Part shown: one piece after another, positions 2,604 to 13,676 of the stretch
Position numbering within the stretch: position 1 is the first letter of the stretch
Layout of the letters: the number at the start of each line of letters is the position of its first letter
Origin: Croceicoccus pelagius
Lineage (GTDB): Bacteria; Pseudomonadota; Alphaproteobacteria; Sphingomonadales; Sphingomonadaceae
Reading direction: 5' to 3'
DNA: 64,000 bases
Assembly (NCBI RefSeq): GCF_001661915.1
Contig: NZ_LYWY01000039.1
Location: forward strand, 186,001 to 250,000
The notes under the pieces: generated by a model
Told to the model about the DNA's origin: nothing
What the model saw: only the letters and a program-made list of their open reading frames with translations
Database searches by the model: none
Translations under genes and position numbers: made by a program

Positions 2604-3529
2604 GCGTGCGGCATTTCCTCGACCTCTCGGATGCGGGGGGAGACGCGATTGCGGCGATGATCAACGACGCCATCGACCGCAAAGAAGCGCGTGTCGGGAT
2701 GCCCAAGGGCGCGCCCGATGACGATGCGCCGCTCAAGGGCCGCGTTCTGGCCATGATCTTCGAGAAGAACTCGACCCGTACGCGCGTGTCGTTCGACATG
2801 GCGATCAGACAGCTTGGCGGCAGCTCGATCATCATGGAAGCGGGCAGCATGCAGCTTGGCCGGGGCGAGACCGTGGCCGACACCGCGCGCGTCCTTTCGC
2901 GCATGGTCGATGCGATTATGATACGAACCGACGATCACGCCAAGATCGAGGAATTGGCGCGCCATGCGACCGTTCCGGTGATCAATGGGCTCACCGATCG
3001 TTCCCACCCCTGCCAGATCGTCGCCGACCTGCTCACGCTAGTCGAGCATGGCAAGGCGCTGCCGGGGCTGGAACTTGCATGGCTCGGTGATGGCAACAAC
3101 GTGCTGCACTCGATCCTCGAGGCGGCGGGCCTGATGAAGTTTAACGTCCGGTATGGTGTGCCCGAAGGGTATGAGCCGGATGCAGAATTCGTCGAAATGG
3201 CACGGGCTGCGGGGTCGACCGTCACGCTTTGCCGCGATGCTTCAAAGGCAGCTTCGGGCGCTGACGTTCTGGTGACCGACACCTGGGTTTCCATGGGACA
3301 GGCGGAAGCGGCCGAAAAGCTGGCGGCGATGCGTCCCTACCAGGTCAACGCCGAACTCATGGCTCATGCTCAGGACGACGCGGTATTCTTGCACTGCCTG
3401 CCCGCTCATGTCGGGGACGAAGTGAGCAAGGACGTGTTCGAAGGGCCGCACTCGGTCGTCTGGGATGAAGCGGAAAACCGCATCCACGCCCAGAAGTCGG
3501 TGCTGCGCTGGGCGTTCGGCCAGCTGTGA
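2600..3529 (+). CDS. argF: ornithine carbamoyltransferase
   Basis: A 309-residue enzyme that makes citrulline from ornithine and carbamoyl phosphate, the step after ArgD and deacetylation. The carbamoyl-phosphate loop STRTR is near residue 57, the HPCQ motif near 136, and the ornithine-site HCLPAH near 264. The start is GTG inside the last codons of argD (4-base overlap), which fixes it well because the protein then begins with the family-typical SVRHFLDL. The stop overlaps the hslO start in the same way. Cytosolic; normally a homotrimer. Confidence 0.96.
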
Positions 3530-4431
3530 GCGATACGCCGCCTGTCATGCAGAACGAGACCGGGTTTGACCGCGTGCTTGCCTTCACGCTGCCCGAAAGG
3601 GACGCGCGCGGGCGATGCGTTCGTCTTGGTCCGACGCTCGACCTGATCCTGTCTGCGCACGACTATCCGGCGGCAGCGCGCAACCTGCTGTCGGAAGCGC
3701 TCGTGCTGTGCACGCTGATGGGTTCGCTGGTAAAGACCGGCGGGCAACTGACGATGCAGGTGCAGGCGCCGAATGGTGCGGTCAGCCTGCTTGCTTGCGA
3801 CTATCGCGGCGGAGAGCTGCGCGGTTATCTCCAGCACGACGAGAAGGCGTTGGAACGGCTGGGCGCCAATCCCGGACTCAAGGCGCTGTTCGGTGACGAA
3901 TCCTTCCTCGCGATCACCTTCGATCTCGCGACCGGCGGTCGGTATCAGGGAGTAGTGCCGCTTGACGGAACGTCGCTGAGCGAGGCTTGCGAGATGTATT
4001 TCCGGCAGTCGGAACAGGTCCCCTCAGTCCTGCGTGTCGCGATCAGTTCGGAAGGTAGCCACACGGTCGCCGGGGGCGTGCTGATCCAGCACTTACCCGA
4101 TGGCGAGGAAGGCCGCGAAAGGCTTCACGTGCGCTACGACGATCCCGATTGGGAGCATGTCGCGGTGATCGGGGGAAGCATTCGCCACGCAGAGCTTGTC
4201 GATCCGGCGCTCTCGATGGAGGCGATCGTCTGGCGTCTCTACCACGAGGAAGACACGGTCCGCGTCGAAGCGCTGGAGCATATCGTGCGCGGATGCCGCT
4301 GCACGGTCGAGCACTACCGCAGTGTCTTGTCGCAGTTCGCACAGGACGATCTTGCCGAGATGCGCGAGGACGACGGCCTGATCCATGTCGACTGCGCGTT
4401 CTGCTCCAAGGTCTTTGCGCTCGACGTCTGA
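3526..4431 (+). CDS. hslO: Hsp33 redox-regulated holdase chaperone
   Basis: A 301-residue Hsp33. The C-terminal redox switch is complete: Cys257-x-Cys259 and Cys290-x-x-Cys293 bind zinc when reduced and form disulfides under oxidative stress, which activates the holdase. The N-terminal two thirds match the substrate-binding core. It starts with GTG overlapping the argF stop by four bases. The argD-argF-hslO order recurs in Sphingomonadales, so translation of this stress chaperone is tied to arginine genes here. Activation is post-translational; nothing in the DNA suggests separate control. Confidence 0.94.
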
Positions 4432-4472
4432 ACCCGCTTGCGCCCGGCGAAGGTGCATCCTAGCTCCACGTC

Positions 4473-5159
4473 ATGACTGATCAGCACAAACAAGCGCCTG
4501 CCGTCGTTCTCCTGTCGGGTGGGCTGGACTCGATGGTGACCGCCGGGATCGCGCGCGAGCAGGGCTTTGCCCTCAATGCGCTCACGATCGATTACAACCA
4601 GCGGCATCGCCGGGAACTGGAGAGTGCGAAACAGATCGCTGGCGAACTTGGCACGGACCGGCACGTCGTTCTGCCGCTGGACCTGCGCGCTTTCGGCGGT
4701 TCAGCGCTGACTGCCGATATCGACGTGCCGAAGGACGGCGTCGGCGAAGATATTCCGGTCACATACGTCCCGGCACGCAACCTCGTGTTCCTGTCTTTGA
4801 CGCTGGCATGGGCCGAGGCGATTGGCGCGCGCGACATCTTTATCGGTGTCAATGCGCTCGACTACTCGGGCTATCCCGATTGCCGCCCCGAGTTCATCCA
4901 GGGATTTGCCGATCTCGCTCGCTTGGCGACCAAGGCCGGGGCTCAGGGTGGAGAGTTCACGATCCACGCACCGTTACAATATCTGGGCAAGGCGGAGATC
5001 GTTTCCGAAGCCTACAGGATTGGGCTCGATCCGGCGGTAAGCTGGTCCTGCTACGATCCGATGCCCGACGGCACCGCTTGCGGACAATGCGACAGCTGCC
5101 GGTTGCGGCTGGAAGGCTTCAGCAAGGCCGGACGCGAAGATCCGCTGTCCTACGCCTGA
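4473..5159 (+). CDS. queC: 7-cyano-7-deazaguanine (preQ0) synthase
   Basis: A 228-residue ATP-dependent enzyme that turns 7-carboxy-7-deazaguanine into preQ0 in queuosine synthesis for tRNA modification. The PP-loop LLSGGLDSMV lies at residues about 13-22. The C-terminal zinc site is seen as CYDPMPDGTACGQCDSC near residue 192 (four cysteines). Length is normal. It follows hslO after 41 bases, so it may share that transcript. Its stop is followed by a strong bidirectional terminator shared with the convergent ompA-type gene. Confidence 0.95.
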   Translation: MTDQHKQAPAVVLLSGGLDSMVTAGIAREQGFALNALTIDYNQRHRRELESAKQIAGELGTDRHVVLPLDLRAFGGSALTADIDVPKDGVGEDIPVTYVPARNLVFLSLTLAWAEAIGARDIFIGVNALDYSGYPDCRPEFIQGFADLARLATKAGAQGGEFTIHAPLQYLGKAEIVSEAYRIGLDPAVSWSCYDPMPDGTACGQCDSCRLRLEGFSKAGREDPLSYA

Positions 5160-5180
5160 TGCCATTACACCGATGAAAAG

Positions 5181-5213
5181 AAAAAGGGGCCGGCGTGAAC
5201 CGGCCCCTTTTTC
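5181..5213. terminator. bidirectional rho-independent terminator
   Basis: A perfect 13-bp stem: AAAAAGGGGCCGG (5181-5193), loop CGTGAA, CCGGCCCCTTTTT (5200-5212). The A-run on one side and the T-run on the other make it work in both directions. It lies between queC (rightward) and the OmpA-family gene (leftward), which converge here. Confidence 0.93.
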
Positions 5214-5242
5214 TTGTTTCGTTTCCGAGTGATCGGAAAGAA

Positions 5243-6304
<1,062 letters not shown>

Positions 6305-6335
6305 TCGCGTTTCCCCTTGTTCTTAGGCGACATTG

Positions 6336-6352
6336 CCCGAGGCCACCTCGGG
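6336..6352 (-). promoter_or_regulatory. hairpin in the leader of the OmpA-family gene
   Basis: Perfect inverted repeat CCCGAGG / CCTCGGG with a 3-base loop, about 32 bases upstream of the start codon. No T-run follows in either direction, so it is not an obvious terminator. It may stabilise the abundant porin mRNA (inference). Confidence 0.4.
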
Positions 6353-6422
6353 ATTCTCTATCGTCCGCCTAAAACGCAGGCAAGCAATGATACGTATCTG
6401 CATGTAAGTCTTTTGTTAACGA

Positions 6423-6875
6423 TTAGCCTGTGATCCCCTCCTGGTTCAGAGCAGCGATTATCCCGTCGATGGCGGCGCGGGCTTCGATGTCGACATTCGT
6501 CCCGCCTTGCGGGCTTGAAATCGGGGAAAGTCGGCTCCAGCCATTCGCGAAGAATGCAAGCGCTCCGGTTGTGAGATCGAACACTTGCATACCTCGGGCC
6601 GGTGAGCAGAAAATCCATTGTCCATCGTGATAGCAGGCGATCTCGTCATCATGCGATGCGAACAGGCCGTTACCGCTTGGCGCGACGATCCAGCATTCAC
6701 CGGATTTGGGATCGGTGGGCGGTGTATCGGTGGTACCTTGGACAACCGGATGCAGCAGGGCATCGAGAATGACGTGGGCCTCGTTCACGAAGACCTCTTT
6801 CTGAGCCTGCGCGACGTTCAGGAAGGGAAGCTTGAAGCGTGCCGTAGTCGCACTGAAGCCAATCGGGTCGGGCAT
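6423..6875 (-). CDS. DUF2793 protein, last gene of the GTA remnant
   Basis: A 150-residue protein. It matches the DUF2793 family, seen at the 3' end of GTA and phage tail clusters in sphingomonads: LPFLNVAQAQKEVFVNEAH near residue 17, then the conserved GECWIVAPSGNGLFASHDDEIACY region. The family is thought to contribute to the tail fibre or cell attachment. The ATG at 6873-6875 is preferred over an upstream GTG because a GGAG ribosome site sits five bases before it. It lies 21 bases downstream of the broken gene 15. The reading frame is intact although the genes around it have decayed. The function is inferred from context. Confidence 0.75.
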   Translation of the reverse strand: MPDPIGFSATTARFKLPFLNVAQAQKEVFVNEAHVILDALLHPVVQGTTDTPPTDPKSGECWIVAPSGNGLFASHDDEIACYHDGQWIFCSPARGMQVFDLTTGALAFFANGWSRLSPISSPQGGTNVDIEARAAIDGIIAALNQEGITG

Positions 6876-6896
6876 GAGAATCTCCACGATCAGAAA

Positions 6897-9082
6897 TTAG
6901 AAGTTGAGTGAGAGCGGGAGCGAACGCGCATGGTCGCCGATCTGCCTGATCTCGAATGTCGCCGGTCTGGGCTTGGCGCGAAGGCCCGTCGCGGTAGCTG
7001 CATCGATATCGAGATGCGCTTCCGGGACTTCCCAGACGATGGCGACACCGTCCGCGTCGATAAAGCGGACTTCGTAACCCTCTCGACTTTCCATGAGCGG
7101 TATTTCGACTTCATCCGGCCATGACCACGCGCCGCGCGCACGGCGTGTCCATGCAATCGAAAGCCCACCATCCACGTTCTCGCTCATGCTCGCCCGGACT
7201 GCGGAAAGCGGACGCAGCGTCGCACCTCCCGAAGAAACCGGTGACCGAACCGGTTGCGGATCTGCGTGGCCCAAGGCGACGATATCGAAATTTGCCGCGG
7301 TCCCGATCGCCGCAGTGTCGAGCGCCGTAAGATTATCGTCCAACAGGACAAAGACCTCGTCGGCACCATGGTTTCCGATTTCATGCTCGGCTCCGCCTCG
7401 GCCGCGGAGCAAGTTGGCGAGCTCATAAAGGCCGCCGCCTCTTGGGGGCGCCGAACCGAACTGAATGATTTCTTGGCCGATCCGGGCCCGATTTGCGCAC
7501 TGCGCCAATTCGTCGATGCTGGCATCGGTAAGCGCGAACTCAGCATCGCGAGCTGGACAAGCAGTCTGCTCGCCCGGTCGACCAGATGTGGGGAAGCAGG
7601 GGATAGCGGCGACTGTAGGTTGCCAACAATTGCACGGTCTCGTTCCGCCCGACCGATTGTGAGAAGTACCCCGTCGCCGGTATCGATATGCAGCGCGGCG
7701 CCTGTCCAACCGGAGTATGCCGACGACACTGCGGCATAGACCTGTCGCTCGTTACCGCTTCCGCTGCCATCCCAAGGCAGTTCAAAGGCGCTTAGAAGCG
7801 TGGGCCCATTGCTCAGATCCCGCGGCTTGCGATCGGCCCCGGCATCGCCGGCAGAGCGGATACCCCCTGCATGACCCATTGGAACAGAGCGCAATACGAG
7901 TTCGATGCCTGACGCTCGCCATTCCTATCCGGCGACTTGCCAGACAGTGTTGGTTGCTTGCGGACGGACGAAGCTTCCGGGACGAATGGATTTGTCGATA
8001 GTCGCAACGCGATAAGCGAGCCGCTCGCGTCCGGTCATCGATCGTTCCGCCAATTCCTGCGCTATGTGGTGGGCAGCGTCCGCCGTAAGACCTACCGGAA
8101 AGTCGACGGTCTCGATCGCGCCGTTGCCGGCAACGCCGCGACTCCTCTGGAGACCGGGCTGAAAGTCGCGATCCTTGTCGTAGTAGCGCAGACACATCGC
8201 GGTCTGCCTGGCGCCCGCCATGCGCGATCTTTTAGAACCGGTGGACTGCCCGAATTCGCCTTCGCGGTTAGCGATAGGCGTGGGCAGATCGACGACATCG
8301 GTTGCAATCTTTATCGCACTTCCGATCACGCCGAGACTTCCTCGCGACGCATCGATTGCTAAGGGATAGCCGGTGTCGATTGTCGCCAGGAGTGCAAGCC
8401 CGCTGCCGCTTTCGTGACTGATCCCGGTCATACCCTCCAGTTCGAAGCCGGATGCAATTTCCTGCCCGTCCGAGAGCAGAGGCACAAGTTCGGGCGAGCT
8501 TTCACCCGCAAAGATTTCGAACGTCAGCGCGGGAATGCGATTGCCGAAGTCTGCAAGCTCGAGATCCTCGAAGACGACATAAGCGATTCCCCGAAACGCC
8601 GGGCATGTGGCACCCATGTCTGAGCCGATCAGCGGGTCCGGTGCTTGATGTTCGGAGCCGTAGTAGATGCGAAAGCTTCCGCCGACTTTCAGATCACCAT
8701 TGGCGCCGCGCAGCAGGTTGCCGTCAGCCCAGATACGTCCCACGCCGTCTATCGGCCGGCTGGCGAGCGCGACTGCGAACGACATCGTGTAGCTGTAAGT
8801 GGTGATCTTCGGTTTGCCCTTGCCGCCGCCGCTCTTCTCCTTGTGCTCGACAAGGTTGGTAGCCCAGATCACGCTCCCCGCGGTTCGGACGGTTCCGAAG
8901 TGACGGGGAATGGCCGTGCCGTAACTCGACGTCGTGACAGCGAGTTCCTTGAGCCGCGCGCCCTCGTGCTTTGGCGAGCCGAAAACGGCATTGTCGAGCG
9001 CGCGTCCGGCCAGCGTGCCAAGCGCGCCGCCAAGCGGACCGCCAAGCGCGGTGCCGACTGTGGTCAGGACCAGTGTTGCCAT
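6897..9082 (-). pseudogene. broken GTA gene 15 (phage tail / host-specificity protein)
   Basis: One gene of 729 original codons, now interrupted twice. The first 385 codons (9082 to 7928) encode the tail protein N-terminus: Gly-rich start GTALGGPLGGALGTLAGRA, and SYGTAIPRHFGTVRTAGSVIWATN, typical of this family. An in-frame TAG stands at 7925-7927. The same frame then continues with EWRASGIELVLRSVPMGHAGG through VDRASRLLVQLA. At about 7545-7551 a single base is missing and the sequence resumes one frame over with DAEFALTDASIDELAQ and GQEIIQFG, ending at the natural TAA at 6897. Total length 2186 bases is one short of a multiple of three, which fits one deleted base. The alphaproteobacterial gene product forms the GTA baseplate and tail tip. 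A sequencing error cannot be excluded for either lesion. Confidence 0.85.
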
Positions 9083-9085
9083 CGT

Positions 9086-9496
9086 TCAATCCTTGAAATG
9101 TGTCGGAATCTGCCATGCCGCGATCCGTTTCCAGGACGGATCGGGTTTGCCCTGTACGACTTTGCGGAGGCCAGCGTGTGCGTGGACGATCGCCTCGGGC
9201 CCGACCGCGACAGCAAGATGGAATTGGCCTGCGCCCAGATCGAATAGCAGCACATCTCCCGCCGAGGGGTTCTCGGTTCGCCTGAGCCCGGAGGCCGATG
9301 CGCTGCTGAGCATGGCGTTGATGCTCGTGTTACGAAGCCCGTATGACGTGGGCGGACGCGCTTTTCCGCCGACGCGGTCTGTCACGGCGGCTATCAGCCC
9401 GACGCAGTCCAGACCCGTCATCGGGTCGCGCCCGCGCAAGCGAAATGGCGAGCCCACAAAAGCTTCGGCCGCCGCCACCGTGTGTGGATTGCTCAT
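9086..9496 (-). CDS. GTA gene 14: NlpC/P60-type peptidase
   Basis: A 136-residue protein. It carries the NlpC/P60 pattern: the nucleophile in TGLDCVGLIAAV near residue 25 and the histidine in GQFHLAVAVG near 92. In GTA and phage particles this small cell-wall peptidase sits in the tail and helps entry through peptidoglycan. The start at 9494-9496 overlaps the stop of gene 13 in an ATGA arrangement, as is usual between GTA genes; a longer upstream frame would only overlap gene 13. Three bases separate its stop from the start of gene 15. The reading frame is fully intact. Confidence 0.88.
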   Translation of the reverse strand: MSNPHTVAAAEAFVGSPFRLRGRDPMTGLDCVGLIAAVTDRVGGKARPPTSYGLRNTSINAMLSSASASGLRRTENPSAGDVLLFDLGAGQFHLAVAVGPEAIVHAHAGLRKVVQGKPDPSWKRIAAWQIPTHFKD

Positions 9497-10311
9497 CCGG
9501 AAACCCGGTATCTTGCGAGGAGATCGTTCCCGGGGAGGAAAGGTTCGCCCCGGAAATTCACACCGTTTGCAAAGCGGCCGCTGCATGTCGCCCACCGGCG
9601 ATCGCAACCCTGACGCAATTCGATCCGCGTTCCGACCGCGACCGTCTCTGCGAGCGCCGGTGACAGCACGAAAGCACCGTCGTCTATGGCGGTCACTTCA
9701 TGGATCAGGCCGGTTCCAGCACCGTCCAGCACGCGTACTTCGCCATCGAGGTAATCGGTGGGTGCGATCTCATCGGCCACAATAAGTCGTGTGCCCTCCT
9801 GACCGATCACCGCAACCCGGCTGGCGTTAGCGAACCGTGACACGGGCAGATTGCATCCCGGTCCGCAGAACCGGGCTCGGCAGGTCGGGCTCGTGCGCGG
9901 TATCGTGTCGACGTCGAGGCGGCTCTTTTCGGATAAAAGTTCGGCCGTGAAACTGCCCGCGTCTTCCTCGACCGTGCCGACGCGCCCCGTATAGATCACT
10001 TCGCGTTCGAGCGTTTCCCAATCGACGATCCCCATTTCGACCCGGGCCTCATCGAACCGCCCCGCCTCGAGGTCCTCGCTCGTCACGGCCGCGTGGGCGA
10101 GTGCGCCGCTCATCTCAGCGCTGTCGGGTTCAAAATCTGCGCTGAACCTGACGGCGGAAGGTACCATCCCGGGTGCGGTCAGATGGCGGATGTCGTCGAA
10201 GACGATGTCGCGGTCGTGGCTGGTGAAACCGATTGTCACTCCATCCTTGCGAAAGATGCGCCACCAGGTCGCGACTGTCTCGAGTTCGCTCTCGAACCAG
10301 ACCCGGCTCAT
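9493..10311 (-). CDS. GTA gene 13: DUF2163 phage baseplate protein
   Basis: A 272-residue protein of the DUF2163 family (phage conserved BR0599-like C-terminus). Family features visible: FTSHDRDIVFDDI near residue 30, the cysteine cluster CRARFCGPGCNLP near 147, and the C-terminal signature GCDRRWATCSGRFANGVNFRGEPFLPGND split over residues about 234-262. In RcGTA-type particles this is a tail-baseplate hub component. The start codon overlaps the stop of the gene 12 remnant (TGA within GCATGA), keeping the ancestral junction. The frame is intact. Confidence 0.88.
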   Translation of the reverse strand: MSRVWFESELETVATWWRIFRKDGVTIGFTSHDRDIVFDDIRHLTAPGMVPSAVRFSADFEPDSAEMSGALAHAAVTSEDLEAGRFDEARVEMGIVDWETLEREVIYTGRVGTVEEDAGSFTAELLSEKSRLDVDTIPRTSPTCRARFCGPGCNLPVSRFANASRVAVIGQEGTRLIVADEIAPTDYLDGEVRVLDGAGTGLIHEVTAIDDGAFVLSPALAETVAVGTRIELRQGCDRRWATCSGRFANGVNFRGEPFLPGNDLLARYRVSG

Positions 10312-10798
10312 GCCGCTTCCCTGACCTCGACGAGAGGAACGCTGGGCGCTTCATCGCTTCCTCGGCTTCGCTCGCCTCGCGCATCCTTTCGCGCATCAGG
10401 TCGAGCTTCGCATTGATCGAGGCGATGATCTCCTCCTCGTCCAACTGCTGTTCGTTCGCGCGCATCTTGCTGACCGTTTCCTTGTGCGCGATCAGCAGGC
10501 GAAGCGAGTTGGCGTTGTCGTACTTGCGCTTTCCCTTGGTCTTGGCACTTTCGTATTCGCCCATGCGCAAGCGGCGAACCAGTTCCAGTTCAAGGATTTC
10601 GTATCCGTCGCATAGTGCCTGGAACCAGGCCTTGGCGAAAACCGGGTCTGCCCGACGCTGGCGATAGACCGTGCCGGTGTCGACTTTCTCAGCGCGAGCG
10701 GCGGCCTTGATGTTCGAGGTGCAGGAAAGCGTATCGAGAAAGATCTGCTTCCAGTCTGCAGGCGTGCGTCGACCCGCCGGGGTGGAACCCTGAGCCAT
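10130..10798 (-). pseudogene. GTA gene 1-like small-terminase protein, C-terminus replaced by deletion
   Basis: Starts at the ATG 10796-10798 behind a strong AGGGAGGT ribosome site. Residues about 12-50 look like a helix-turn-helix (DWKQIFLDTLSCTSNIKAAARAE, then DTGTVYRQRR). Long charged helices follow to residue about 150 (LDEEEIIASINAKLDLMRERMREASEAEEAM). This is the layout of the first GTA gene of sphingomonads, resembling a small terminase. After the Met-Lys codons near 10350 the frame runs out of phase through the gene 12 stub and into gene 13, giving about 70 residues of Arg-rich nonsense before the stop at 10130. The real domain ends near 10351. A promoter is still present upstream. 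Confidence 0.7.
10308..10350 (-). pseudogene. 3' stub of GTA gene 12 (DUF2460)
   Basis: Immediately upstream of gene 13, a frame different from the small-terminase frame reads APSVPLVEVREAA and then TGA. The pattern APS-V/I-P-L-V/I-E-V/L-R is the usual carboxyl end of GTA gene 12 products, and the TGA overlaps the gene 13 start as in intact clusters. Everything upstream of this stub is instead small-terminase sequence. The stub therefore marks one side of an internal deletion that removed genes 2-11 and nearly all of gene 12. Confidence 0.75.
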
Positions 10799-10875
10799 GT
10801 GGACCTCCCTGTTGGCTGACCGCGAGAACCATGTCGCCACTGCCCCGGCGACTCGCTCTATCGCAATGTTCAATT

Positions 10876-10904
10876 TCTCTAACCAAAGAGCGTCACAATG
10901 TCAA
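10876..10904 (-). promoter_or_regulatory. candidate sigma-70 promoter of the GTA remnant
   Basis: On the minus strand, TTGACA (10899-10904), a 17-base spacer and TAGAGA (10876-10881) stand about 80 bases before the small-terminase start. The -35 box is perfect and the -10 weaker. The region around it is AT-rich compared with its surroundings. Confidence 0.5.
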
Positions 10905-11032
10905 TATAAAAGTGCCAAATAGGTTATTTGATGGATGTGGGATTAGCCTCTGTCCCTCGCGGAAAGATCGGCTAAATAGCTCACGATGTTCGGATTGCTC
11001 CTGCGCGATCCACTGGAAGACGAGAGGGTCGC

Positions 11033-11671
11033 GTGCTTCGCAAGCTTTACGAATGGACGATGGAAAAGGCGCAACATCGCCATGCCGAACGCTGGCTGGC
11101 CGGGTTCGCTTTCGTCGAATCGAGCTTCTTTCCGATTCCGCCGCACCCTCTGCTCGGCCTCATGTGCCTGGCAAACCCGAAGAAGGCGGTTCGCTATGCG
11201 TTGATCACGACCATCGCGTCAGTGCTGGGTGGATTGTTCGGCTATGCGATCGGATACTTCCTTTACGACACGCTCGGTCAATGGCTGATCGCGACGCTCG
11301 GCCTGCAGGAAGCGTTTCCCAAGGCCGCCTGCTATCTTCGCGAATATGACGTTGAGGTGATCCTGCTTGCCGGATCGACGCCGGTCCCGTTCAAGCTGCT
11401 GACGATCACCGCCGGTTTCATCCAGATGGCGCTGCTGCCGTTCATCCTCGCCAGCATCGCCGGGCGCGGGCTGATCTTCATGAGCTGCGGCATCCTGTTC
11501 CGTGTCTTCGGCGCACCCATCAAGAGCTTTATCGACAAGTACCTCGGCTGGGTCACTGCTGCATTCGTGGTGCTGGTCGTGGCCGGTTTCATCGCCCTTT
11601 CGTTTCTCGGCGGAGGTAGCGAGGAGACCAAGACGGCGTGCGATCTAGCGACATCGGTGCGCCCCGCCTGA
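11033..11671 (+). CDS. YqaA / DedA-like (VTT domain) membrane protein
   Basis: A 212-residue membrane protein with the YqaA-family order: amphipathic start, FVESSFFPIPPHPLLGLM near residue 28, a glycine-rich helix (LGGLFGYAIGYFLYD), the re-entrant GSTPVPFKLLTITAGFI near 115, then GRGLIFMSCG and a last membrane helix near 180. DedA/VTT proteins flip or move lipids such as undecaprenyl phosphate or phosphatidylethanolamine in the inner membrane; the exact substrate of YqaA is not known. The GTG at 11033 is chosen because GAGAGGGT lies just before it and the next ATG would cut the first helix. It reads away from the GTA remnant. Confidence 0.85.
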   Translation: MLRKLYEWTMEKAQHRHAERWLAGFAFVESSFFPIPPHPLLGLMCLANPKKAVRYALITTIASVLGGLFGYAIGYFLYDTLGQWLIATLGLQEAFPKAACYLREYDVEVILLAGSTPVPFKLLTITAGFIQMALLPFILASIAGRGLIFMSCGILFRVFGAPIKSFIDKYLGWVTAAFVVLVVAGFIALSFLGGGSEETKTACDLATSVRPA

Positions 11672-11787
11672 ATTGCTGCGCTGCACAAAAGATCGTTGAC
11701 GCAACCGGATCTTTACCGGATCATGTCATTGTGATTTCCAGTGATAGCGCCGAATAATCCCATTGGGCGCGACACGCAGGAGGAGCG

Positions 11788-12057
11788 ATGGCGGACCGGG
11801 ATTTTGAGCTTCAGGTTCAGGGCTACGGCCTGACCACGGTGCAGGTGCATTTCTGGATGCCCGATCACCGGAGTCTTCTGCAGCAATTCGTATTCCAGCA
11901 ATACGACATCGCCCCGAAATTTCCCCGCCTCGGCACGTTTCTCGATTACTGGCGCACCGATATAGAAGCGGTGCTGCACTCCGTAGCGGTTGCGCACAAG
12001 CACCTGATCGGGCCCGCTGAATGGCAGGCCGTTGACGGGGTCATCACGATCAACTGA
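11788..12057 (+). CDS. usg: Usg family protein
   Basis: An 89-residue soluble protein matching the alphaproteobacterial Usg family: FELQVQGYGLTTVQVHFWMPDH at the start (residues 6-27), FVFQQYDIAPKFPRL near 38, and LHSVAVAHKHLI near 63. The family is conserved but without a known biochemical role. A strong AGGAGGAG ribosome site precedes the ATG. It ends five bases from the convergent TPR gene. Upstream (11703-11722) the heptamer CCGGATC occurs twice, four bases apart. The family call is sure; the function is unknown. Confidence 0.88.
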   Translation: MADRDFELQVQGYGLTTVQVHFWMPDHRSLLQQFVFQQYDIAPKFPRLGTFLDYWRTDIEAVLHSVAVAHKHLIGPAEWQAVDGVITIN

Positions 12058-12062
12058 CGGGA

Positions 12063-13676
12063 TCAGCCGCCAGTGGCGATTTCTTCGACCAGCCGGCTTG
12101 CCACGGGGTCCAGCGGGCGCACCTCCAGCGTCTTGCGCGCTTCGCGTAGTGCGCCCTCGCTATCGCCTGCTGCCTTCAGCGCCAGTGCATAGTCCCGGCG
12201 GACCGGGTACCAGAAGGCGGGCGGATCAGAGAACCGGCTGAAGTCGTCGGTTTCCTCGATCATCGCGGCCTCTGCAAAGGCGGCGGCGGCATCGCGCGGG
12301 CGGCTTTCCATCATCGCGACCCGGCCCGTCAGCACGGCACGAGTGATCGAGAGCATCTGTTCAGGGGCGTTCTTGTAGCTGCCTTCGCCTTGCGGCTCGA
12401 TGCTGGCGGGAATGGCTGCGATCTCTGCCTTTACGCCGTCGGCATCGCCAAGGAATGCGAGAGCCTCGCCGCGTGCATAGTGCCGGGCGGCGGCAAGATA
12501 GGGCAACTTGGGTTCGGGCAGCGCGAGGACGACTTTTGGATCTTCGAACCGGCCCAGCGCGAAATAGCCTGCTGCCGAAAGGAGCTGGCGGACGGGGCTG
12601 CCTTCTTCCTGGTCCTGCGAATATTCGACCAGCGGACGGCCCAGCATCAGCGCGGTGCGGCTGTCACCGGACATGAGCGCACCGCCAAGGCCGAAGATGA
12701 CGTTGTGCGCATGGTACGGGATTTTCCAGACCCCGCCCTCGGCATCGGGCGGGAGCAGCATCGCCTGATGCTCGCCAATCATCACTGCACGCTTGTTGGC
12801 TGCGGCGGCATCGGCGTAGCGGCCCACCCAGTACCACGTGTGCGATGGCATGTGGACGAGGTGGCTGGCCTGCAGCCGCATCGCATCGAGCCGGTCTGCA
12901 GCGGCCACGGCCTTGGCCGGATCGCCCGCGATTTCGGTCGCGTGGATGTAAAAGTGGATCGCGTCGGTGTGATCGGGGTTGCGAGCCAGTACGGGCTCGA
13001 TCAGGTTGATCGGCTCTGCCATGCCGCTCTCGTCGGTTGAGGCGACCATTAGCGCGTCTGCGGCGAGAACCTGCAACGTGTCATGTTCGGGCCAGCGCGC
13101 GGCAAGTTCGGCCATCTTGTGGGCATAGGCCTTGTCGCGCGCCTCTACATCGCCCTTGGGGCGGTAGCGCAGAGCCAGCGCCTCGATCAGCGCGCTTTCC
13201 TGGTCGGTCGTCGTGCCTTTCGCCAGTCGCCGGGCTTCAAGGACTTCGGCATAGGCGTCCTTCCGTTCCTCGGCATCGCGCCCGTAATTGAGTGAGGGGC
13301 CCATCGACAGTGCATGACCCCAACGGCACATAGCGCATTCTGGAGCGAGGCGTACTGCTTCCGCCATCGCGGCGGTCGCCTCGTCGTGCGAGAACGCCAT
13401 CATCAGTTCGATGCCGTTGTCGAAGAAGGCCTGCGCCTGCGTATTGTCGGTGCTGATCGGAAAGCCGCCATTGCCGACATTGGCGATCAGCTGCGTGGGC
13501 TTGTCCGCCCCGTGATCCATCGCTTTATGGCCCGGCGCGGTTTCTTCGTTTGGGGCGCTGACGGCGGTTTCGGAATGCGACCCGTCGGGCAGTCCCACTG
13601 GCTTTGCATCCTGCGCAAGGGCAGGGCAAGCAGCGCCCGCAAGCAGGAGTGAAGTGAAAGCGGTAAGCGCACGCAT
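12063..13676 (-). CDS. secreted tetratricopeptide-repeat protein
   Basis: A 537-residue protein with a signal peptide (residues 1-21, ending PALA before QDAKP) and TPR-like helices throughout. The stretch AQAFFDNGIELMMAFSHDEATAAM followed by CAMCRWGHALSMGPSLN (residues about 76-123) is characteristic of a family of periplasmic TPR proteins found in sphingomonads and related bacteria. Later repeats appear near residues 240, 300 and 480. The start at 13674-13676 is chosen over an upstream in-frame ATG because it gives a clean signal peptide and has AGGGGA before it. No enzyme motif is visible; a role in protein binding is inferred. It is three bases from the convergent usg terminus region and downstream of spt. 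Confidence 0.8.
   Translation of the reverse strand: MRALTAFTSLLLAGAACPALAQDAKPVGLPDGSHSETAVSAPNEETAPGHKAMDHGADKPTQLIANVGNGGFPISTDNTQAQAFFDNGIELMMAFSHDEATAAMAEAVRLAPECAMCRWGHALSMGPSLNYGRDAEERKDAYAEVLEARRLAKGTTTDQESALIEALALRYRPKGDVEARDKAYAHKMAELAARWPEHDTLQVLAADALMVASTDESGMAEPINLIEPVLARNPDHTDAIHFYIHATEIAGDPAKAVAAADRLDAMRLQASHLVHMPSHTWYWVGRYADAAAANKRAVMIGEHQAMLLPPDAEGGVWKIPYHAHNVIFGLGGALMSGDSRTALMLGRPLVEYSQDQEEGSPVRQLLSAAGYFALGRFEDPKVVLALPEPKLPYLAAARHYARGEALAFLGDADGVKAEIAAIPASIEPQGEGSYKNAPEQMLSITRAVLTGRVAMMESRPRDAAAAFAEAAMIEETDDFSRFSDPPAFWYPVRRDYALALKAAGDSEGALREARKTLEVRPLDPVASRLVEEIATGG

Follow-up and report, generated by a model that had tools for sequence, protein, structure and literature searches.

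A remnant RcGTA-type gene transfer agent cluster in Croceicoccus pelagius, and a deletion with a common break point of such clusters in other members of the family

The window analysed here, a stretch of 64,000 nucleotides, corresponds to bases 186001-250000 of contig C32 in the 3.30-Mb, 40-contig genome of Croceicoccus pelagius, which is listed as 100% complete. On its minus strand, between the genes for a VTT-domain protein and an OmpA-like protein, it carries a remnant of an RcGTA-type gene transfer agent (GTA) cluster. In the RcGTA gene numbering from 1 to 15, this remnant comprises gene 1 and a scrap of gene 12, followed by genes 13 and 14, a disrupted gene 15, and a DUF2793 gene (Table 1). 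Genes 13, 14, 15 and DUF2793 follow each other in order and belong to RcGTA-type families. Intact relatives share with the RcGTA-type clusters of Alphaproteobacteria both the gene order and the DUF2793 tail fibre, the matched families being terminase, portal, capsid, tail tube, DUF2460, baseplate hub, NlpC/P60, and Rcc01698-like tail protein. Unlike such clusters, the window is devoid of genes 2-12, and the gene 12 of the relatives differs from them by combining a tail-sheath TIM barrel and DUF2460 in one 776-aa protein. An ancient Sphingomonadales prophage with an OmpA neighbour was reportedly described by Viswanathan et al. in 2017, and is possibly this very locus.

Table 1. Features of the GTA remnant and its neighbours in the C. 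pelagius window
Feature	Position	Strand	Remark
VTT-domain membrane protein, left neighbour	11033..11671	+	gene found in 14 of 14 same-genus genomes
Conserved block ahead of gene 1 (TTGACA, ribosome site)	10799..10960	-	by comparison with relatives
GTA gene 1 (TerS-like)	10353..10798	-	native for codons 1-148 and two more bases; 12 to 14 codons missing at its end
Junction gene 1/gene 12	10352..10353	-	gene-1 side ends at 10353, gene-12 side starts at 10352
Gene 12, last 14 codons and stop	10308..10352	-	non-contractile tail sheath and DUF2460 in relatives
Gene 13 (baseplate hub, PF09931), open	9493..10311	-	75% to C. sediminis (G001), 72% to C. gelatinilyticus (G013)
Gene 14 (NlpC/P60), open	9086..9496	-	longer ORF to 9607
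Gene 15 (phage tail, Rcc01698-like), broken	6897..9082	-	in-frame stop at 7927-7925, 1-bp deletion near 7549
DUF2793 (GTA tail fibre family), open	6423..6887	-	62% to C. sediminis (G001)
OmpA-like protein, right neighbour	5243..6304	-	by comparison with relatives

Gene 1 matches its counterpart in C. gelatinilyticus (G013) at 96% over 149 aa and that of C. sediminis (G001) at 89% over 140 aa. A first, sequence-only reading of this DNA had considered its promoter, ribosome site and small-terminase domain as intact. The ribosome site GGGAGG ahead of the gene-1 ATG is indeed unbroken, but what was called a promoter is a conserved, TTGACA-bearing block with a few window-specific substitutions, and no Pfam family matches gene 1 at E<=0.001, so that the small-terminase label derives from synteny and from similarity to relatives. 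A second, short sequence resembling the 3' part of gene 1 at about 78-83% is also present elsewhere in the genome (G000:C32:273492-273565) and at one place in each of seven other same-genus genomes. Besides, a gene with DUF6456, a domain of the GTA regulator GafA, is found in all 14 same-genus genomes, that of C. pelagius included.

The closest relatives found, C. gelatinilyticus and C. sediminis, both possess a complete cluster between the same neighbours, orthologous gene by gene and at the same place. Five further genomes of the genus match terL, genes 12 to 15 and DUF2793, the latter with a stop in G003 and in two frames in G002. Among the 14 same-genus genomes, gene 13 was detected in seven besides the C. 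pelagius genome, and all seven also match genes 1, 12, 14 and 15, terL and DUF2793 at the locus; the genes in between were seen in G001 and G013 and in the records of G008, G002 and G009. In the 14 intact loci first fetched, genes 1 and 13 are about 7 to 10 kb or more apart, and no case of natively adjacent genes 1 and 13, an arrangement which would have made a loss unnecessary to invoke, was seen in the genus. In C. sediminis, gene 12 (L031:10639-12969; 776 aa) encodes a single protein comprising a tail-sheath N domain, a TIM barrel and DUF2460.

The ORF starting at the ATG at 10798 runs to 10130 on the minus strand (222 aa) and corresponds to native gene 1 for 148 whole codons and two bases; the earlier estimate of a clean gene-1 frame up to about 10351 agrees with the alignments with G001 and G013, in which the sequence is native through 10353. 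From 10352 onwards, the gene-12 frame reads EAPSVPLVEVREAA-stop, its TGA (10310-10308) overlapping the ATG of gene 13 at 10311. In C. sediminis, the matching residues close the 776-aa gene 12 just ahead of gene 13, so that a chance match can be discounted. The scrap had thereby been correctly identified, overlap included, although it counts 14 codons instead of the 13 initially announced. As proposed, the coding sequences are joined out of phase: genes 1, 12 and 13 are in three different frames, and the gene-1 frame consequently runs on for 74 codons, the first of them a hybrid, to 10130. Translational coupling of gene 13 to gene 12 has presumably been lost. Compared to the intact clusters, 9,694 bp are missing relative to C. 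gelatinilyticus (L032 reversed, 3456-13149) and 9,703 bp relative to C. sediminis (L031, 3222-12924), i.e. the end of gene 1, terL, portal, gene 3.5, protease, capsid, the genes up to 11, and gene 12 save its 14 last codons. On both sides of the exact join at 10353/10352, the window is collinear with these relatives to the last base, with neither inserted nor shuffled sequence, and the microhomology amounts to 0 bp, as neither parent side extends into the other in the comparison with G001 and G013.

The genes for terL, portal and major capsid, without which a cluster would not be functional, have no match in the genome. No match was obtained with the portal (PF04860), capsid (PF05065) and terminase (PF03237) models, which recognised proteins in 4, 4 and 6, respectively, of 14 well-known genomes used as a control, and neither gene 12 nor the N- or C-terminal part of terL was found elsewhere in the C. 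pelagius genome. A relocation of the missing genes is therefore rejected.

Taken together, these data make it highly probable that the window contains the remains of an RcGTA-type cluster left in a Croceicoccus by one illegitimate deletion of about 9.7 kb. Such a deletion, joined without homology, would have taken away the genes for terminase, portal, protease, capsid and head-tail proteins and most of those for the tail, leaving gene 1, interrupted after codon 148, in an out-of-frame fusion with the final 14 codons of gene 12. Particles would then no longer be made, the remaining genes would be losing constraint, with gene 15 already broken, and the resulting GTA-minus ('cheater') state may be tolerated or even favoured. 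The join, the absent genes, the intact relatives and the gene-15 lesions are direct observations, and parsimony points to a single event. The one clean join relative to both closest relatives fits this part of the original proposal, but serial deletions could end at the same join. Accordingly, a scar produced by several successive deletions or rearrangements deserves mention: partial clusters with other break points exist in the family, and a deletion series would give an identical final join, but the collinearity of both sides to the last base, with nothing inserted or shuffled, makes this history unlikely. An assembly error inside the 587-kb contig is a formal possibility, as the join is known from the assembly, but the missing genes are on no other contig.

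Gene 15, whose damage the first reading had not noticed, is interrupted by an in-frame stop after codon 385 and by the 1-bp deletion; in G001 and G013 its ORF is intact (727-730 aa). No other decay was seen in the remnant than these two lesions, which may predate the cluster deletion, so that the description of a 'dated-looking' intermediate of GTA loss applies only loosely. An accelerated decay of genes 13-15 in the window was not seen. The gene-13 dN to G003 is 0.329 for the window, 0.331 for G001 and 0.333 for G013, and for the window versus G001, dN/dS amounts to 0.07 in gene 13 and to 0.13 in the 5' part of gene 15 (the G013 row for the 3' part of gene 15, out of frame with 7 stops, and gene 14 of G003, with a stop, were left out), these ratios being rough since genes 13 to 15 have a high or saturated dS. 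The low dN/dS and the lack of extra distance to G003 suggest that constraint was kept until recently, and the loss would therefore be young. In the block from gene 13 to DUF2793, dS is 1.3 or more, or saturated, in the readable pairs of the window, G001 and G013, against 0.31-0.60 for gene 1, VTT and OmpA; as it is high between the intact clusters too, this block must be either exchanged or fast-evolving and cannot date the deletion. The same region, 6423-10311 in the window with its equivalents in L031 and L032, has a dS several times that of its flanks, which could reflect allele replacement or very fast tail-tip evolution. A crude age of about 0.01 substitutions per site, calculated from one stop in genes 13-15 on the basis of 93 expected stops per unit of neutral divergence, is not relied on, its error being more than tenfold.

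Other one-off deletions of the same cluster occur in the family, and the loss in the window is an ordinary one-off GTA loss, of a kind already known from the available text of PMC10883770. That study of the co-evolution of gene transfer agents and their alphaproteobacterial hosts reports, in the same portion, GTA cheaters and recurring losses, and the C. pelagius lineage resembles its pseudogenised or lost clusters in that it seems, judging from its gene content, to have lost GTA production while its kin keep it. Unlike the window, the cases in this text are described with neither a base-level scar nor a repeated break point. The conserved Sphingomonadales prophage mentioned above is predicted to be an RcGTA-like element in the available text of PMC6821227.

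A second type of deletion, in which terL codon 152 is joined to about codon 22 of DUF2793, was found in at least 33 genomes from 17 genera of the family. Six of them belong to Croceicoccus, i.e. 6 of the 14 same-genus genomes, which show the order VTT, gene 1, terL codons 1-152/DUF2793 (from about codon 23-26) and OmpA, and in all of which gene 12 is absent genome-wide. The scar of the window is not of this recurrent type, its genome having no terL match, genes 13-15 being kept and the join linking gene 1 to gene 12. Across 397 family genomes, the N-terminal terL query matched in 309 and the C-terminal one in 276 (both in 266, N only in 43, C only in 10). The 43 N-only genomes comprise 30 with the terL152/DUF2793 join, two (G176 and G268) with two contigs ending at the join, and 11 with other or decayed forms or a contig end. 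The 33 deleted loci consist of those 30 and of G006, G012 and G109 from outside the 43, and this number is a lower bound, since the 266 genomes with both matches were examined in part and a second terL, as in G109, can hide the deletion. An intact cluster was also fetched in 12 of the 17 genera. A search for gene 12 in 23 of the deleted genomes gave a single match, in G014, which is partial, covers DUF2460 only and lies at another place. Similarly, the 80 named gene-1 loci include 61 with a portal, 11 with terL and DUF2793 and no portal, and 8 that are of another form or end early; the join is present in 10 of the 11 portal-less loci, the last one, L212, being another deletion. No report of this join was found in the literature as covered by titles and abstract openings, PMC10883770, PMC6821227 and PMC9836097 being among the sources.

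An artefact of in-silico cutting is an unlikely source of this deletion, because the join lies in two public records, NZ_JABWGV010000002.1 (676748, Actirhodobacter atriluteus) and NZ_WTYL01000002.1 (1077472, Allopontixanthobacter sediminis), both as long as their own assembly names state; these correspond to G122 and G109 and are not added samples. The terL-frame ORF of deleted loci ends at varied lengths, from 166 to 638 aa, and open-frame length is a poor screen, as deleted G395, G282 and G263 have frames of 419 to 638 aa. The contig pairs of G176 (C48/C28) and G268 (C23/C19), i.e. L104, L178, L127 and L181, break off at the recurrent join and lack the usual overlap, and gene 12 was not found in either genome. 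Further one-off partial deletions were noticed in L132 (G138), L151 (G102), L159 (G413), L161 (G337), L173 (G158), L272 (G114), L212 and L248; the one in G138 also begins at about terL codon 153, and ends in gene 10.

The 33 loci with the recurrent join (L089-L094 and 27 further ones) were compared base by base. In 31 of them, the GC of terL codon 152 and the CAG of DUF2793 are exactly 8 bp apart; in one the spacing is 9 bp, and in G109 it is irregular. This constant register is compatible with two readings. The first, held tentatively and at somewhat less than even chances, is a site-precise excision recurring in many lineages of the family through an unknown enzyme or process. The second, a possible reading although we would sooner doubt than accept it, is that one old deleted allele has persisted beside the intact allele in many species, as a trans-species polymorphism, with recombination making the flanks species-specific; it agrees with the view in the available text of PMC10883770 that cheaters and losses recur.

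In favour of recurring excision, a quick tree of gene 1 and terL-N (67 rows) requires at least 19 intact/deleted changes, with starred branches forcing at least 13 for the deleted label, and a VTT tree requires 15, of which 9 are forced, but support is SH-aLRT only, many forks are weak and the genes are linked to the locus. Close pairs in opposite states are found, namely G183/G116 (support 100) and G131/G014 (support 95). Moreover, lineage-specific letters reach the join in the letter alignment, for which 11 of the 65 oriented loci were skipped or not anchorable. Both states of genus g2 have PEHSHA on the left and THNEAL on the right, down to about 15 bp from the join on both sides, and HHIA is shared by intact G272 and deleted G395, with lineage letters to within a few bases of the join on the left. 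The tree and these flanking letters argue against simple descent of one allele, and under the old-allele reading, the alleles of genus g2 would need to have recombined as close as about 15 bp from the join on either side. The pairs formed by the first two bases of the spacer are either terL-like or DUF2793-like (Fisher p=0.004, indicative only as the rows are related), which is in line with recurring excision.

Flank likeness between genera, determined on 56 intact or deleted loci, five of them anchored by hand, bears on both readings. Within 0-14 bp of the join, deleted alleles are slightly more alike than others, with 0.845 deleted-deleted, 0.819 mixed and 0.790 intact-intact on the left, and 0.889, 0.864 and 0.840, respectively, on the right, as expected from an old allele; nevertheless, mixed likeness lies midway between the like-state values, which shared site preference alone would also produce. 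At 14-29 bp on the left, the values are 0.802 for deleted-deleted and 0.786 for mixed, and farther out the gap is about zero: past 29 bp on the left and 14 bp on the right, two deleted alleles from different genera resemble each other no more than a deleted and an intact one do, up to about 0.01, which speaks for recurring excision. The base following the GC of codon 152 is T in 18 of the 31 8-bp joins and in none of the 26 anchored intact terL genes, in support of the old allele, but a fresh join with a DUF2793 Phe codon would also give T. Finally, the contigs of G176, a metagenome-assembled genome (MAG), and G268 end within a base of the join, as if the reads of both alleles had forked there, which would again fit two coexisting alleles.

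Several observations weigh against excision. The two sites show neither homology nor a hidden repeat in the join register (0.28 versus a mean of 0.26 over offsets), no recombinase was recognised by eye in the ORFs between terL and portal of 11 loci, and no excision circle or reciprocal junction was present in the best 80 of 566 related viral contigs. Some intact clusters carry extra ORFs in the 0.5-1.2 kb between terL and portal (L155, L157, L160, L164, L167, L176). GTA clusters of this kind also occur among IMG/VR viral contigs (L283-L362), L283 being 100% identical to the terL part of C. sediminis.

A third reading, in which the leftover itself (gene 1, a 152-residue TerL fragment and a DUF2793 domain) is useful and selection keeps only this fusion, appears improbable. 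It could account for the low dN/dS of terL-N (0.07-0.16) and its lack of stops in the five Croceicoccus species with the common deletion, as well as for the absence of stops from gene 1, terL-N and DUF2793, as far as they were aligned, in 26 of the 27 deleted loci inspected (the exception being DUF2793 of G109), but the terL-N data also fit a recent formation and count in favour of recurring excision. Selection on the fusion is made less likely by its halves being out of frame; the varied ends of the terL-frame ORF and the frank decay of other truncated forms further oppose it.

At the left site, G001, G013 and G008 have TCG or ACG where most genomes have AGC. One may speculate that, owing to this altered site in the nearest relatives of the window, the loss of the cluster in its clade followed a different route; the left letters of deleted G395 and G282 differ as well, which makes a strict requirement for this motif doubtful.

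The available text of PMC10883770 discusses the open question of how GTA production, being costly and lethal, can persist in the face of non-producers. In this context, the window offers one clean, young-looking loss with intact sister species for comparison, and the recurrent deletion provides at least 33 natural GTA-minus genomes with a common break point, hence a direct way to ask whether losses reflect random decay, a programmed event or a balanced polymorphism. With chances that we regard as even, Sphingomonadaceae-type bacteria have had their GTA cluster removed repeatedly at the same two nucleotides without homology, either by programmed or hot-spot excision or through two very old alleles maintained across species. 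If this is true, the recurrent join would amount to a molecular switch that separates producers of a shared DNA-transfer particle from non-producers, and the C. pelagius window would represent a different, one-off way to the GTA-minus state.
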